A stretch of 64,000 bases of DNA from Nitrobacter vulgaris (lineage in GTDB: Bacteria; Pseudomonadota; Alphaproteobacteria; Rhizobiales; Xanthobacteraceae): positions 1 through 64,000 of the forward strand of contig NZ_MWPQ01000023.1 in NCBI RefSeq assembly GCF_002028545.1, read 5' to 3'. Made by a program: the position numbers and the translations under genes. How positions within the stretch are numbered: position 1 is the first letter of the stretch; each line of letters begins with the position of its first letter. Below are positions 15,985 to 23,970 of this stretch, one piece after another. Below the pieces are notes generated by a model. The model was given only the letters and a program-made list of their open reading frames with translations. It did no database searches and was not told the DNA's origin.

Positions 15985-16293
15985 TTTCAGCACTTTGGAT
16001 CGGTTGATATTTGCTGGGCTGTATCGTTTGGCGCTAAGTGTTCTAGGTGCTCCGGCGATTTTGAAACTGAGACGGTGATCGTGTCGCCGAATTGCTACAG
16101 CGTATGTCGAGGGCATCATTTTAACATTTAACGCACTAAATCTGATCATGGGGCATCACAGCTTGATCATAAGTAATCGCATATAATGGAGCGGTCCATC
16201 ACGGAGCACAACGGTGCCGGTTTTGGAGAAGATTATTTATTTGTTTCGGCTCCGGGTGCGATGGGCGTCTTTCAATTTGAAAGGATTGCCAAA

Positions 16294-16515
16294 ATGGCCG
16301 AAGAACTCGATTCTGTTATCGAAGCCCTTTCTAGTGCCAAGCTGAGTCTGAGCAAGGCAGTCGAACAAATGACAACCGGCACGGCGGCGTCGAGCCTTTC
16401 CGAGGCTCAGTTGAGCCGGCTTAAGGCGCTGTCGGACCAGAACACTGGTTGTCAGAACAGCGGCTGCGGCGGTGCGGAAGCTGCGCTGGCGGCGAAAGCC
16501 GGGGGCCGGAAGTAA
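16294..16515 (+). CDS. Putative RiPP precursor peptide
   Basis: From the ATG at 16294 (AAGGA eight bases upstream) the product has 73 residues. A longer frame opening at 16186 has no good ribosome binding site. The first 46 residues look like a leader: helical and amphipathic, with no Cys. The C-terminal part holds the only two cysteines (C53, C58) in an N-x-GC repeat (QNTGCQNSGCGG). Ser47, Thr51 and Ser56 lie nearby, followed by an Ala/Gly-rich end. The gene is directly upstream of a radical SAM maturase and a YcaO cyclodehydratase and is followed by a strong hairpin, as expected for a highly transcribed precursor. No family is recognised; the role is inferred from size, composition and context. 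Confidence 0.7.
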   Translation: MAEELDSVIEALSSAKLSLSKAVEQMTTGTAASSLSEAQLSRLKALSDQNTGCQNSGCGGAEAALAAKAGGRK

Positions 16516-16528
16516 GTCCGTTCGCCTC

Positions 16529-16560
16529 GTCCGGCGGAAGCCAATGTTATTCCGCCGGAC
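16529..16560 (+). terminator. Strong hairpin (attenuator-like) after the precursor gene
   Basis: An 11-bp perfect inverted repeat (GTCCGGCGGAA at 16529-16539 and its complement at 16550-16560) encloses a 10-base loop and is followed by GTTTCT. It sits 13 bases after the precursor stop. There is no long T-run, so partial termination or mRNA 3'-end stabilisation is more likely than full termination. Either would let precursor mRNA exceed enzyme mRNA. Confidence 0.65.
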
Positions 16561-16623
16561 GTTTCTGATGCGGGTACGCTGCTCGGTTTGATAACCGTGC
16601 TTAGCTGCTAATGAGGCCCGATC

Positions 16624-17988
16624 ATGCAGAAGCTGTCCTCATATGTTGTCGCATCACCTATATTCTCCGAGGATAACGCACCCCTTCTAGTGGTTCTCGC
16701 CACCCGGACGGGCGTCGTTTTCGAGTTGCCGCTATCGATCTGGCAAGTCTTGCGGTCGGGCGCATTCGAGAAACTGAACGCCAAGACCCGGACCGAGCTG
16801 TCGGAAGCGGAAATACTGGTGCCGCAGGCGGAGGACGAGCTCGCGGTTGTGCTATCGCGCAATCGCGAGGCGATCCGGACCAATACTCATCTGAATTACG
16901 TAATCCAGCCGACCGCGCATTGCCAGCTCGGCTGTGGCTACTGCGGCCAGACGCATGAGCGAAGAAACCTCAGCACAGAGAACGAGACGGCCATTCTGCG
17001 GGACGTCCGAGACAGACTGGATGCCGGGAAGTTTGCAGAGCTGAACCTCTGCTGGTTTGGCGCCGAGCCGCTTTCCGGACTTGTGCAGATGCGCTTCCTG
17101 ACGCCCCAGCTTCGCCGAATTGCGGAAGAAAGGAATGTTGAATACCGGGCGAGCATTGTTACCAACGGACTGGCAATGTCCCCGAAGATAGGCGCTGAGC
17201 TAGTGAATACACTCGGGGTTGTGTCTATCACCGTGTCGCTCGATGGAACTGCGATGTATCACGACCGGCGACGGCATACGAAATCCGGTAAACCGACTTT
17301 CAACCAGATCCTTGCGAACCTCGTGGCGCTGGCGGATACGATCGGCTCCGATCCGGTGGAGATCAAGGTCCGCTGCAATGTCGACCGGGAGAATGCGCCC
17401 GATGTTGTACGGCTGCTACAGCGCCTGCATGACGAGGGGCTGCACCGTGCGGTCCAGTTCTATACGGCGCCGATCCACTCCTGGGGCAATGATGCCCATC
17501 GGCGGAGCCTTGACCCGGAGGACTACGCCCGCATGGAGCTGTCCTGGTTCGTGGAGATGAAACGGCTGGGCTTTTCGGTGCCGCTCGTCCCCAAGGTGCA
17601 GCATGTCGTCTGCCTTGCGGTGCAGCCGCAGGGAGCGCTGGTCGATGCGCATGGCACGCTCTTCAACTGCACCGAGGTCTCCTATGTGCCGAGCTACGGC
17701 ACGCCAAACCGATTTGCCATTGGTGATGTCATGAGCGGCGAGCGGGGCACGACGCGCGATGTCCTTGGTAGCTTCAACGATCAAGTTCAGAGCGGCGCCT
17801 TCGGCTGCAGCCGCTGCCGAATGCTTCCTGTTTGTGGGGGCGCATGTCCGAAGGAATGGGTCGAGGGCCGAGCGCCCTGCCCCAGCTCCAAGCGCAATAT
17901 GGCGGAACGGTTGCTTTTGGCGGCGGCTTTCAATCGCACCGATTCGGCGACTGATCCGGCCGAGGCTGCTCCCGTCGAAGCTGCGTAG
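16624..17988 (+). CDS. Radical SAM/SPASM peptide maturase
   Basis: This is a 454-residue radical SAM enzyme. C100, C104 and C107 (CQLGCGYC) form the CxxxCxxC site for the SAM-binding 4Fe-4S cluster. The TIM-barrel part runs to about residue 310. The C-terminal SPASM domain supplies further cysteines (FNCTEV, CSRCRMLPVCGGACP and one in APCPSS) for auxiliary clusters. SPASM enzymes of this size modify peptides, for example with thioether or C-C crosslinks. Residues 1-80 precede the barrel and could bind the leader, but I see no clear PqqD-like motif. It is the second gene of the precursor/maturase/YcaO set. The reaction type is not determined by sequence. Confidence 0.88.
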   Translation: MQKLSSYVVASPIFSEDNAPLLVVLATRTGVVFELPLSIWQVLRSGAFEKLNAKTRTELSEAEILVPQAEDELAVVLSRNREAIRTNTHLNYVIQPTAHCQLGCGYCGQTHERRNLSTENETAILRDVRDRLDAGKFAELNLCWFGAEPLSGLVQMRFLTPQLRRIAEERNVEYRASIVTNGLAMSPKIGAELVNTLGVVSITVSLDGTAMYHDRRRHTKSGKPTFNQILANLVALADTIGSDPVEIKVRCNVDRENAPDVVRLLQRLHDEGLHRAVQFYTAPIHSWGNDAHRRSLDPEDYARMELSWFVEMKRLGFSVPLVPKVQHVVCLAVQPQGALVDAHGTLFNCTEVSYVPSYGTPNRFAIGDVMSGERGTTRDVLGSFNDQVQSGAFGCSRCRMLPVCGGACPKEWVEGRAPCPSSKRNMAERLLLAAAFNRTDSATDPAEAAPVEAA

Positions 17989-18019
17989 GCGGTGGCGCAA
18001 GCCGGTTCGGAGAACGGTT

Positions 18020-20260
18020 ATGCGGATCACGCGGGACCGTATTCATCTAGAGCCGGACGGCGTTCTGCTGATCGGCCTAGCCGGCCCGATCCTGATCCGG
18101 AGCGAAACGGTCAGGGAGATGATCGAGGCGCTTCTGGCCTATGCCGATCCGACTTCTGGAGAAGTCTACGGGATTCGGCCGCACGGCGGCCGAATGGAGG
18201 CTTGTTACACTGAACTGACCCAGTTGCTTGAGATAGCGGGCGTGGCGGATGCTGGAAGTGCTGCGACGCAGGCGCCGCGCCCACGCGAGGGCCACGTGCT
18301 TATTGCTGGCGATGCCGATTGGGTGCCGGCCTTGGCCGAAGAACTCGCCCATTCGGGGATAGCGTACCTGTCGTTCTGGTATCCTGAGCCGGGTGGCAAT
18401 TGCGACGCGGCAACCAGTCCGGAAGCTCTGTGCAGCAGGATCAAAATCATGGCCCCGGAATGCATCGCCCGCTTGCACGCATGCGCCGACAGAGAATGGG
18501 ATTTACCTCCGGATGTGGACCTCGTCGTAGGCGCGCTGGCCCCGGTCAGGGTAGGACGGCAAGTCGAGCTGGAGCGCGCTTGCCGCGCTGTCAGGATCGC
18601 CTTTCTCGGGGCGGAGATCGTCGGCACGCGGGGTTGCATCGGCCCGATCTCCCTTCCAGGCACCGCGGGTTGCTGGCTCTGTGCACGTCAGCGGCGCCGT
18701 GCGCATAACCCCGATCCCGAGGCGGTGGCGCGCGCCGATCGTCTGACGGTTGTGAATTACCCACCTCTGCCGTGGGACGTGGCGCGGTCCTTCGGGCAAT
18801 CGGTTGCGGTGGAGGTCCGGCGCTATCTCCGCTCAGTTGCTGAAGGGTCGCTGCGCGCGCATGTGCGGATCGTCGAGGTGCACGGGCAGACCTCGGCGCG
18901 CCATGGCTTCGTTCCGATGCCTTGGTGCGAGACCTGTGGAACGGATGGTCCGGCACTGCCGCGGCCGGACCTTTCGGCCACCGTTGACGAGACTGACGTA
19001 GAGACGATCCGAACGGCGTTCCGGAACTGGATCGATCCGGAAACAGGACCGATTGTCGGGCCGGTCCTCCGGGAGCTGCCGCAGTTCGCGCGCAAAGCTT
19101 TTGTTGCGGTTGCGGAGATTGCCCCTTTTTGCGCGTTTCGAACCGATCCTACCCTACCGGAGCCGGCGTCTGGCAAGGGGATGGCGGGAGGGACAGCAAT
19201 GCTCGGCGCGATCGGAGAAGCGTTCGAAAGATATGCCGCTTCGCGCTGCGATCTTGATACCCTGGTCCAAGCCCGTATGGCCGAGCTCGATGGCCTAGTG
19301 CTCGATCCGCGTCGGGTTGGAATGTATGATGCTGCGCAATATGCCGCCGAAGGCTTTCCATTCGCGCCCTTCGATCGCGAGGCAGTTCATTTTTGGAGGT
19401 TGGCGAACAATTTGCGAACCGGAACGAAGACGTGGGTACTGGCCAGTCAACTGTACTACAAGTTTCCGTCCGTGTTTTCGGATTTCGTCGCGCAAGTCAC
19501 TTCGAACGGGCTAGCCGCTGGAGCGGACTTGGAAAGTGCAACGATGCGGGCCGTTCTGGAGCTCATTGAACGGGACGCGGTCATGGTCGCGTGGCTCTGC
19601 CGCGACCCGGGGCGCCAACTGCCGCTCAATCTCTGCGATGCCGAGACCCGCGACATCGCCGGTGAACTGATGTCCGCGGGCGCTTCTGTCGCATTTTACC
19701 TGCTCGAGGGCGCGGGAAAGACTCCGGTGGTTCTGTGCACAGCCATGGGAGACGGACGGTCATGGCCCGGCCTATCCGCCACTGCGGCGGCGCATCCCTG
19801 TCTCCGGCGTGCGGCCCGAGGGGCGATGCTGGAGCAGGCCGTCTCGGGCTTCGGCCTGAGGAAGATGCTGCGAGAGGGAAGTGGACCGCGGCCAATGCGT
19901 CCAGAGGAGGTGCGCTGCGGCCAGTTTCTCGACCACGCTTGTTATTATTTGCCTAAGCGAGAGGAGGAGTTGGCGTTTCTTCGAAACGCGCCGAGCTACG
20001 AACCGGAGGTGGAGAGTCATGACGAGCCGATTCCGAGCCTTGCTGAATTGGCGGCCCGTCTGGCCGGCGATGGAGTCGAGATCACGGTGGCCGACCTTAC
20101 CCCGCCCGACGTGGCGAGCGCCTCCATCCATGTCGTCCGCGCCGTCGCGGCAGGTCTACAGCCACTCCATTGCGGTTTCGGAATGGAGTTTCGCGGAAGC
20201 TGGAGGCTTCGACATTGGCGGAGGAAGGCGCTGAACCCGGCACCACACCCATTCTGCTGA
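18020..20260 (+). CDS. E1-like leader-binding / YcaO cyclodehydratase fusion (TOMM synthetase)
   Basis: The ATG at 18020 has GGAGA seven bases upstream; the product has 746 residues. Residues 1 to about 330 resemble the E1-like, leader-binding partner of TOMM cyclodehydratases. Two CxxC pairs (C218/C221 in GCWLC, C303/C306 in WCETC) would bind structural zinc. Residues about 385-746 are a YcaO domain with ATP-site motifs GKGMAGG, GEAFERY (E400, E403) and ELIERDAVMVAW. The protein ends NPAPHPFC, containing the PxPxP motif typical of azoline-forming YcaO enzymes. It should cyclise Cys/Ser/Thr of the precursor to azolines using ATP. No flavin dehydrogenase follows. The next sequence is a broken IS, so the operon may be truncated. 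Confidence 0.87.
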   Translation: MRITRDRIHLEPDGVLLIGLAGPILIRSETVREMIEALLAYADPTSGEVYGIRPHGGRMEACYTELTQLLEIAGVADAGSAATQAPRPREGHVLIAGDADWVPALAEELAHSGIAYLSFWYPEPGGNCDAATSPEALCSRIKIMAPECIARLHACADREWDLPPDVDLVVGALAPVRVGRQVELERACRAVRIAFLGAEIVGTRGCIGPISLPGTAGCWLCARQRRRAHNPDPEAVARADRLTVVNYPPLPWDVARSFGQSVAVEVRRYLRSVAEGSLRAHVRIVEVHGQTSARHGFVPMPWCETCGTDGPALPRPDLSATVDETDVETIRTAFRNWIDPETGPIVGPVLRELPQFARKAFVAVAEIAPFCAFRTDPTLPEPASGKGMAGGTAMLGAIGEAFERYAASRCDLDTLVQARMAELDGLVLDPRRVGMYDAAQYAAEGFPFAPFDREAVHFWRLANNLRTGTKTWVLASQLYYKFPSVFSDFVAQVTSNGLAAGADLESATMRAVLELIERDAVMVAWLCRDPGRQLPLNLCDAETRDIAGELMSAGASVAFYLLEGAGKTPVVLCTAMGDGRSWPGLSATAAAHPCLRRAARGAMLEQAVSGFGLRKMLREGSGPRPMRPEEVRCGQFLDHACYYLPKREEELAFLRNAPSYEPEVESHDEPIPSLAELAARLAGDGVEITVADLTPPDVASASIHVVRAVAAGLQPLHCGFGMEFRGSWRLRHWRRKALNPAPHPFC

Positions 20261-20330
20261 CCGAGCCGGCTGCAAAACGGTGACAGCTATCGTCTCGCGA
20301 CGGCCAGGCGATCTCTCCGAATTGCTCAAG

Positions 20331-20435: not shown

Positions 20436-20681
20436 AACGAACGGCTGATCGGATCGATCCGGCGCGAGTGTTTGGACCACATCATTGTCTTGAGCGAGGT
20501 GCATCTGCGCCGGGTACTCAATTTTATGCCGACCATTGCAACCGTGTCAGAACCCCTCGATCTTTGGACAAGGATGCGCCGGCTTCCAGGCCGGTTCACC
20601 GAACCGGTGTCATTTGTTCACACGCCATTCTGGGCGGACCGCATCACCGCTACGCCCGTGTTCAAGTTTTCGGTACATACA
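20436..20681 (+). pseudogene. C-terminal fragment and right end of an IS481-like transposase
   Basis: It begins NERLIGSIRRECLDHIIVL. After a frameshift it continues SLDKDAPASRPVHRTGV...AILGGPHHRYAR, the usual end of integrase-core transposases of this type. The last bases TCGGTACATACA mark the right terminal repeat. A near-identical right end is at 23755-23877 and a shorter one ends at 33484. Confidence 0.75.
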
Positions 20682-20683
20682 AG

Positions 20684-23531: not shown

Positions 23532-23877
23532 TTGCGACGCAAGCTGAAAAGCCGGGTTCGCCTCACGAACAGCGATCGCTGGTTCTTTGTCCAGCTGTAT
23601 CGCTGGTTTCCGTCGATCCTGCAGGTTCTCATGATTGTCCGGCCCGAGACGCTGGTGCGTTGGCATTGGGCTGGCTTTCGCCGCTATTGGCGGTGGAGAT
23701 CGCGCCCACTGGGAGGGCGACCTCAGATCGAGACGGAGCTGCGCGTAACCTATCGATCTTTGGACAAGGATGCGCCGGCCTCCAGGCCGGTTTACCGAAC
23801 CGGTGTCATTTGCTCACACGCCATTCTGGGCGGGCTGCATTAACGCTACGCCCGTGTTTAAATTTTCGGTACATACA
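23532..23877 (+). pseudogene. Internally deleted IS481-like transposase with right end
   Basis: The N-terminal part (RRKLKSRVRLTNSDRWFFVQ...RWHWAGFRRYWRWRSRPLGGRPQ) is fused in frame to the C-terminal part (SLDKDAPASRPVYRTGV...AILGGLH). About two thirds of the catalytic domain has been deleted. The right terminal repeat TCGGTACATACA ends at 23877. It precedes the pseudaminic-acid locus by about 90 bases and shares over 120 bases with the copy at 20549-20681. Confidence 0.75.
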
Positions 23878-23970
23878 ATCACTTGCCACTTCGTTGATTT
23901 AGTCTGACCGGCCCGTCATTGACATCGCGCGGACTTCGGTTACGCCACTCCCAGACAAAGAGAGGTCCAG

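Follow-up and report, generated by a model that had tools for sequence, protein, structure and literature searches.

A three-gene cassette of Nitrobacter vulgaris in which a radical SAM/SPASM enzyme and an E1-YcaO fusion accompany one two-cysteine peptide: a possible hybrid RiPP pathway

Several described systems of ribosomally synthesized and post-translationally modified peptides (RiPPs) resemble parts of the three-gene cassette considered here. The cassette lies in a 64,000-nucleotide stretch of Nitrobacter vulgaris DNA (positions 1 to 64,000 of contig NZ_MWPQ01000023.1; "the window" below means this whole stretch) and encodes a short precursor peptide, a radical S-adenosylmethionine (SAM) enzyme with a SPASM domain, and an E1-YcaO fusion protein. 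In Streptococcus, NxxcB joins Cys23 of the peptide NxxcA to the beta carbon of Asn20 (passages of PMC8326336 and PMC13361665). The cassette is like this system, by description rather than by sequence, in that a radical SAM/SPASM enzyme accompanies a short precursor with an Asn three residues before a Cys; it is unlike it in that the Nxxc systems are streptococcal, their described product has a single bridge, and those passages mention no YcaO protein. The Itf pathway of Bacteroides thetaiotaomicron (ItfA/ItfB/ItfD) likewise has, according to a section of PMC11002830, a single precursor that is accompanied by a SPASM/twitch radical SAM enzyme together with a YcaO protein; there, however, the YcaO enzyme makes an amidine and the radical SAM enzyme a Trp-Ile carbon-carbon bond, and, unlike the cassette, the pathway has C39/ABC and TonB-dependent transporters and a conserved Ile-Thr-Phe core motif. 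For the thiazole/oxazole-modified microcins (TOMMs), the class of the fused E1-YcaO enzymes TruD, LynD and MusD, the consulted portion of a survey (PMC4603692) brings up radical SAM proteins in connection with bottromycins alone, and Nitrobacter and Paracoccus are both absent from the consulted portion of its main text.

A radical SAM enzyme and a YcaO protein in one RiPP pathway are thus already known from Itf, whereas a pairing of an NxxC-type with an azoline-type enzyme was not found described. In fact, no description of the cassette itself was found in the open-licence literature, a scope that mostly leaves out subscription journals, including radical SAM RiPP surveys. The earlier note on this DNA, made from its letters, had raised the possibility of a new RiPP subclass. 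The missing description is in line with that suggestion, and the Itf pathway takes from its novelty, since it already pairs the two enzyme types, with other chemistry.

We tentatively propose, at a little less than even chances, that the cassette encodes a hybrid RiPP that would carry Asn-Cys thioethers together with (methyl)oxazolines at Thr51 and Ser56. The features on which this proposal draws are as follows.

16084..20270, + strand: whole cassette, its limits being the extent of DNA similarity to Nitrobacter sp. Nb-311A
16294..16515, + strand: precursor peptide, 73 residues, two Cys; residues 1-38 leader-like and more variable (from the open reading frame and alignment)
16408..16488, + strand: invariant stretch, residues 39-65, with no residue change among six aligned precursors
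16441-16452, + strand: NxxC motif N50TGC53, kept in 6/6 cassette precursors
16456-16467, + strand: NxxC motif N55SGC58, kept in 6/6 cassette precursors
16528..16561, + strand: predicted G+C-rich hairpin of 12 bp just 3' of the precursor stop codon, predicted at all six loci
16624..17988, + strand: radical SAM/SPASM peptide maturase, 454 residues; its N-terminal region aligns with the leader-binding end of CteB
16921..16944, + strand: CxxxCxxC (C100, C104, C107) of the SAM-binding [4Fe-4S] cluster, invariant in 30/30 aligned rows
17611..17880, + strand: SPASM domain (TIGR04085) with seven Cys (C330, C349, C395, C398, C404, C408, C419), invariant in 30/30 rows
18020..20260, + strand: E1-YcaO fusion cyclodehydratase, 746 residues (from domain matches and solved relatives)
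18614..18958, + strand: E1-like region (TIGR03882), residues 199-313, with zinc-type C218xxC221 and C303xxC306; the four Cys invariant in 6/6
19169..20257, + strand: YcaO domain (PF02624) with E400/E403/R404, E514/E517/R518 and a C-terminal PAPHPFC tail; residues invariant in 6/6

The genes for the precursor, the radical SAM/SPASM enzyme and the E1-YcaO fusion adjoin in that order on the + strand, and the positions of the open reading frames (ORFs) and the domain matches confirm what the earlier note had seen there: a 73-residue ORF with two Cys, a 454-residue CxxxCxxC protein with a SPASM domain, and a 746-residue YcaO protein with two CxxC pairs. Six genomes were found to carry this trio in this order, namely the window's own, Nitrobacter sp. 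Nb-311A, N. winogradskyi NBRC 14297, the metagenome-assembled genome (MAG) bin.62 and two Paracoccus genomes (L014 to L018, respectively, for the last five); in each of the latter, the precursor lies upstream and the E1-YcaO gene directly downstream of the radical SAM gene. These five come from a genome scan with the radical SAM alignment, which gave 33 loci, 5 with and 28 without an E1-YcaO gene. For the remaining 28, a tblastn search of the surrounding DNA (E 1e-3) gave no match to the window precursor and no E1-YcaO relative. Note that the sequence of L025 extends just some 0.4 kb past the downstream end of the radical SAM gene, so that the absence of YcaO can hardly be judged there, whereas the other 27 loci cover at least 2 kb.

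The trio is a conserved unit. By blastn, the window matches L014 at 93.7% over 16084-20270 and L015 at 89.8% over 16125-20269, with flanks that have no match in either case, and the mutual DNA match of the two Paracoccus loci is limited to the three genes. Close to the cassette, L014, L017 and L018 have transposase genes. What all six loci have in common is limited to the three genes and includes neither an exporter nor a peptidase, a regulator or an immunity gene; a C39 peptidase was found in just three of the six genomes, and a common exporter of that kind is therefore lacking. The earlier idea of one precursor and two maturases forming a unit is thereby borne out, and when E1-YcaO homologues without the 73-residue ORF were looked for, the ORF proved to accompany the fusion gene in 6/6 genomes. 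Downstream of the cassette, the window also contains a 132-nt direct repeat (20551-20682 and 23747-23878, 92% identical), and the stretch that holds it resembles insertion-sequence remnants by eye.

In the precursor, the two Cys stand in the context QNTGCQNSGCGG. The start at 16294 is favoured over a longer ORF of 109 residues from 16186 because a purine-rich stretch lies just upstream and the relatives align from the same Met. Residues 39-65 are invariant in spite of clear synonymous divergence of their codons (proportion of synonymous differences, pS, 0.15-0.30 within a genus and 0.45-0.89 between lineages), which points to purifying selection on the core; in the leader, the nonsynonymous proportion (pN) reaches 0.25 between lineages. 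Note that the small non-zero pN obtained for the core is an artefact of multi-step codon paths between identical residues. The five other cassette genomes, which were the ones searched, yielded a single precursor copy each. A chance ORF is ruled out by the recurrence with the enzymes in six genomes and by the strong purifying selection. The peptide has no significant match in Pfam or NCBIfam; the only hits, to XseB (E 0.007 and 0.015), are below threshold, and a small subunit of the XseB type is ruled out by 16.4 bits against a cut-off of 35.

The hairpin behind the precursor gene keeps its position in the six loci although its sequence differs. Compared with shuffled sequences, it is strong in the window and L014 (z -3.8 each) and L018 (z -4.1), moderate in L015 (z -2.7), weak in L016 (z -1.95) and not significant in L017 (z -0.38). 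It is possibly an attenuator or an mRNA end that would give an excess of precursor over enzyme; terminator prediction did not call it as a terminator, and Rfam gave no match in the window at gathering thresholds.

The radical SAM protein matches the Pfam Radical_SAM domain (1e-08) and the SPASM model TIGR04085 (34.9 bits, cut-off 27). Its AlphaFold2 model has a mean predicted local distance difference test score (pLDDT) of 92.5, and the nearest solved structure is CteB, both by fold (residues 5-435) and as the first profile match. CteB, the thermocellin/SCIFF maturase of Clostridia, joins Cys to Thr at C-gamma, according to the relevant part of PMC11002830, and is 18-19% identical to the window enzyme. 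The absence of a family from the fold comparisons was given no evidential weight. Among the curated families, the window enzyme passes neither the PapB model NF047865 (88.6 bits against 340) nor the SCIFF model TIGR03974 (44.3 against 425), and it does not belong to TIGR04463, the geopeptide maturases or the CefB maturases, which are among the best-scoring families in the matches listed (193.7, 138 and 114 bits against cut-offs of 525, 400 and 600); no paper naming TIGR04463 was found in the open-licence literature. Judged by these profile scores, the enzyme is a member of an uncurated family, which is seen in Alphaproteobacteria, Bacteroidota, Cyanobacteria and other groups. At the level of the order, homologues were found in 3 of 397 genomes: the window's own, G540, which by its coordinates is the Roseibium locus L031 (40%), and G548 (locus L013, 32-34%), where the 12 kb examined contain no YcaO match. 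L013 was excluded from the tree and the counts.

An indication of what this enzyme acts on comes from its YcaO-less relatives, which adjoin small Cys-containing ORFs of highly dissimilar sequence. Candidate precursors were taken as ORFs of 35-140 residues, upstream and on the same strand, that have two or more Cys among their final 45 residues; after removal of the five YcaO loci and the near-copy loci L028, L039 and L044, 38 candidates remained, and 790 control ORFs from the same loci were treated likewise. Three residues before the Cys, the candidates have Asn at 61 of 101 cysteines and Asp at 10, against 104 and 38 of 2137 in the controls. Elsewhere between -7 and +7, Asn occurs 2-8 times per offset, except for 22 at +3 and 13 at +4, excesses that are due to repeats. 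At least two [N/D]xxC motifs are present in 26/38 candidates as opposed to 16/790 controls. Counted by locus, 17 of 28 have a candidate with at least two such motifs when only the five YcaO loci are excluded, that is, with near-copies included, and 15 of 25 when the near-copies are left out as well. Note that the candidate set includes chance ORFs and that the filter missed the likely precursor of L035. The precursors of eight relatives matched no NCBIfam model at E 0.1.

Some of these loci have features of their own. In L045 (2025-3010), L027 (8795-9924) and L033 (9046-9899), three or four candidate precursor genes stand in tandem upstream of one maturase, mostly with two to three [N/D]xxC each. 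The two Chromobacterium loci, L043 and L044, contain, some 0.2-0.4 kb before the radical SAM gene, identical 57-residue candidates that end in DPTQCDSGYVRCDKGFSG; these break the NxxC rule, and their maturases are strongly diverged. In the Caedibacter MAGs L025 and L026, candidates ending in NTGCVNGVCW and NGICYNGSCGKD precede the radical SAM gene by about 0.8-1.0 kb and have N-termini that look like signal peptides by eye, which suggests another export route.

The E1-YcaO fusion matches YcaO PF02624 (1e-50) and the TOMM leader-binding E1 model TIGR03882 (62.1 bits, cut-off 36.9), and it ends in NPAPHPFC, a C-terminus of the PxPxP type. The best solved relatives by sequence are MusD (7u58), TruD (4bs9) and LynD (4v1t), and the window protein is like these three in its E1-YcaO architecture, in both models and in the tail. 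By this domain content, it is equipped like a fused cyclodehydratase of the azoline-forming kind. Unlike the TOMM systems of TruD, LynD and MusD, the window system falls below the SagD cut-off, has no SagB that could be found and has a radical SAM/SPASM partner. In particular, the SagB-type dehydrogenase model TIGR03605 found nothing in the six cassette genomes, while the same search was positive in 8/14 control genomes; therefore any ring should remain an azoline and not become an azole. The fusion is the sole YcaO gene in five of the six genomes (bin.62 carries three), and between the window and Paracoccus it is just 54-55% identical.

These observations are consistent with the following scheme. 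Each of the two enzymes would bind the leader through an N-terminal domain; the one in the model of the radical SAM protein resembles a RiPP recognition element, and for the E1-YcaO protein such a domain is only guessed. The radical SAM/SPASM enzyme would then take hydrogen from Asn50 and Asn55 and link these residues to the thiols of Cys53 and Cys58, and the result would be two four-residue thioether rings, N-T-G-C and N-S-G-C, similar to that made by NxxcB. The E1-YcaO enzyme would activate backbone amides with ATP and close Thr51 and Ser56, each of which directly follows its Asn inside the ring, to (methyl)oxazolines. That both enzymes act on the 73-residue peptide is very probable in view of the conserved trio. 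Thioethers between Asn and Cys at both sites are likely, given that the YcaO-less relatives mostly show Asn-x-x-Cys and that both window Cys fit this pattern, so that the radical enzyme probably claims both. An azoline at Thr51 and Ser56 is a conjecture that we would sooner doubt than accept; these two residues would be the most likely YcaO sites if both thiols are taken, and the cyclodehydratase step is a weaker inference than the radical enzyme's claim on the two Cys. A competition of the two enzymes for C53 and C58, which the earlier note had considered, is not required by this division of labour, with both Cys probably going to the radical enzyme and Thr51/Ser56 left to YcaO.

A number of points weigh against the proposed thioether and oxazoline pairing. 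On the side of the enzymes, the SPASM domain model is the sole one over its cut-off among the 25 of 54 NCBIfam matches listed for the radical SAM protein; the fusion stays below the SagD model TIGR03604 (196.1 bits against 219.25), though it covers model positions 1-376 of 377; and the structure model of the fusion, made from a six-sequence alignment, has a pLDDT of 42. The cassette is present in six genomes only, and none of the members has a known product or enzyme activity. As to the motif, the NxxC pattern was first spotted by eye in the data that were later counted, so that the counts are a description with a control and not an independent test. Five loci have non-fitting candidates only: those of L024, L040, L043 and L044 are without any [N/D]xxC, and L034 has 1/4. 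L040, L043 and L044 form the outermost branch of the midpoint-rooted tree. Another six YcaO-less loci yielded no candidate under the ORF filter. Thr or Ser at Cys-2 is also frequent without YcaO (35/101) and is therefore no marker of a YcaO target; accordingly, Thr/Ser next to Asn was dropped as a sign of YcaO action. Moreover, both window Cys follow Gly, a context that suits thiazolines.

This last point leads to an alternative that is unlikely and still to be taken seriously, in which the enzymes share both Cys: YcaO would form a thiazoline at one or both of them, and the radical SAM enzyme would cross-link the other or act on the heterocycle. The E1-YcaO protein is intact, and enzymes of this kind usually favour Cys. 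Gly-Cys repeats, furthermore, occur in the precursors of heterocycloanthracin, an azoline peptide, as noted in a portion of PMC4603692. On the other hand, Gly directly precedes 43 of the 101 candidate cysteines in relatives that have no YcaO, and Asn-x-x-Cys occurs at both Cys in 6/6 precursors just as in most of those relatives, by which both look like substrates of the radical SAM enzyme. It is improbable that the radical SAM enzyme instead forms a different bond at NxxC, such as an alpha-carbon thioether or a carbon-carbon bond. SPASM enzymes are diverse and no maturase family cut-off was reached among the matches listed, which leaves room for such a product, whereas the constancy of Cys and Asn as the letters of the motif, and a modelled fold nearest to CteB, a non-alpha thioether maturase, speak for the Asn-Cys thioethers.

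Two further explanations, each with a small chance of being right, concern the E1-YcaO protein. It might make another backbone change than an azoline, for example an amidine, as ItfB does beside ItfD; Itf, in the Itf-related text of PMC11002830, is a pathway where both enzyme types occur together and an amidine is formed. The window protein, however, has an E1 domain and a PxPxP tail like the azoline-forming cyclodehydratases, and its solved relatives are MusD, TruD and LynD, ItfB being known here by description only. Alternatively, the radical SAM enzyme alone would modify the peptide, and the E1-YcaO protein would be a neighbour or a substrate carrier in place of an accessory protein; in agreement with this, an unrelated protein, which a search of the six cassette genomes did not detect, follows the radical SAM gene in 15/28 YcaO-less loci. 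Against it, the ATP-site residues, the zinc residues and the C-terminal motif of the fusion are invariant in 6/6, which is needless for a mere carrier, and the genomes have nothing in common but the three genes.

The accessory protein is encoded 3' of the radical SAM gene (overlapping it in L023) and belongs to one family, present in L020, L021, L023, L027-L029, L031-L035, L038, L039, L045 and L046. Its members, from several phyla, are 243-404 residues long as called and match no curated model; at most, weak tetratricopeptide repeat (TPR) matches appear, 3 of them among 12 members. The invariant residues are R85, A125, H163, Q166, N170 and R173 (alignment A8). Note that, of the 15 proteins found with the profile, 12 had also served to build it. 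The search of the six cassette genomes with this profile found no member, whereas the Roseibium genome used as a positive control gave one. In a tree of 30 radical SAM rows, a single branch with a support of 100/100 separates the six YcaO-linked rows from the rest; the tree is rooted at its midpoint only, and L017 and L018 deviate in composition. Since the YcaO-linked rows share one branch and the accessory family fills the slot in relatives, a single gain of the E1-YcaO gene in the slot of the accessory protein would be the simplest history, which suggests that the accessory partner of the radical SAM family is exchangeable for YcaO.

As for the role of the product, the frozen core and the lack of an exporter or immunity gene would fit a signal, a metal ligand or a cofactor better than a bacteriocin, which is a weak inference; a core that stays invariant from genus to genus suggests that its target or role is fixed. 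A still bolder picture, which we consider improbable enough to be offered as speculation, is a fused ring type in which each Asn-Cys ring encloses its own (methyl)oxazoline, with the E1-YcaO enzyme having replaced the accessory protein and the peptide serving nitrite oxidisers and Paracoccus in a manner like a cofactor, a metal ligand or a signal and not in warfare. If it were true, a YcaO and a radical SAM enzyme would work inside one ring, a ring type that was not found in the open-licence literature. The interest of the cassette is that an NxxC-type maturase and an azoline-type E1-YcaO, from two large RiPP enzyme classes, are paired on one 73-residue peptide, and that this self-contained unit of 4.2 kb is readily testable in E. 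coli.

The spread of the E1-YcaO gene was surveyed, at stated cut-offs, in genome draws that are samples of larger groups. It was found in 4 of 296 genomes of the window's family (the window's own, two others of its genus and G105, at 28%), in 3 of the 9 listed genomes of the genus, in 1 of 385 of the class (the window's own), in 2 of 398 of the phylum (the window's own and G105), and in 1 of 295 of the family of G1058 (G1058 itself). Carriage by phages or plasmids was considered and rejected: protein P0003 has no close relative in viral contigs and only two distant matches in plasmids (24-31% identity), and the precursor has none in plasmids. In G105, a member of the window's family, the distant E1-YcaO gene (28%) follows an ORF of 99 residues with a Cys/Asp-rich tail (L008:7215-13076), and its neighbours, by eye, are presumably a flavin adenine dinucleotide (FAD) oxidoreductase and a LodA-like protein.

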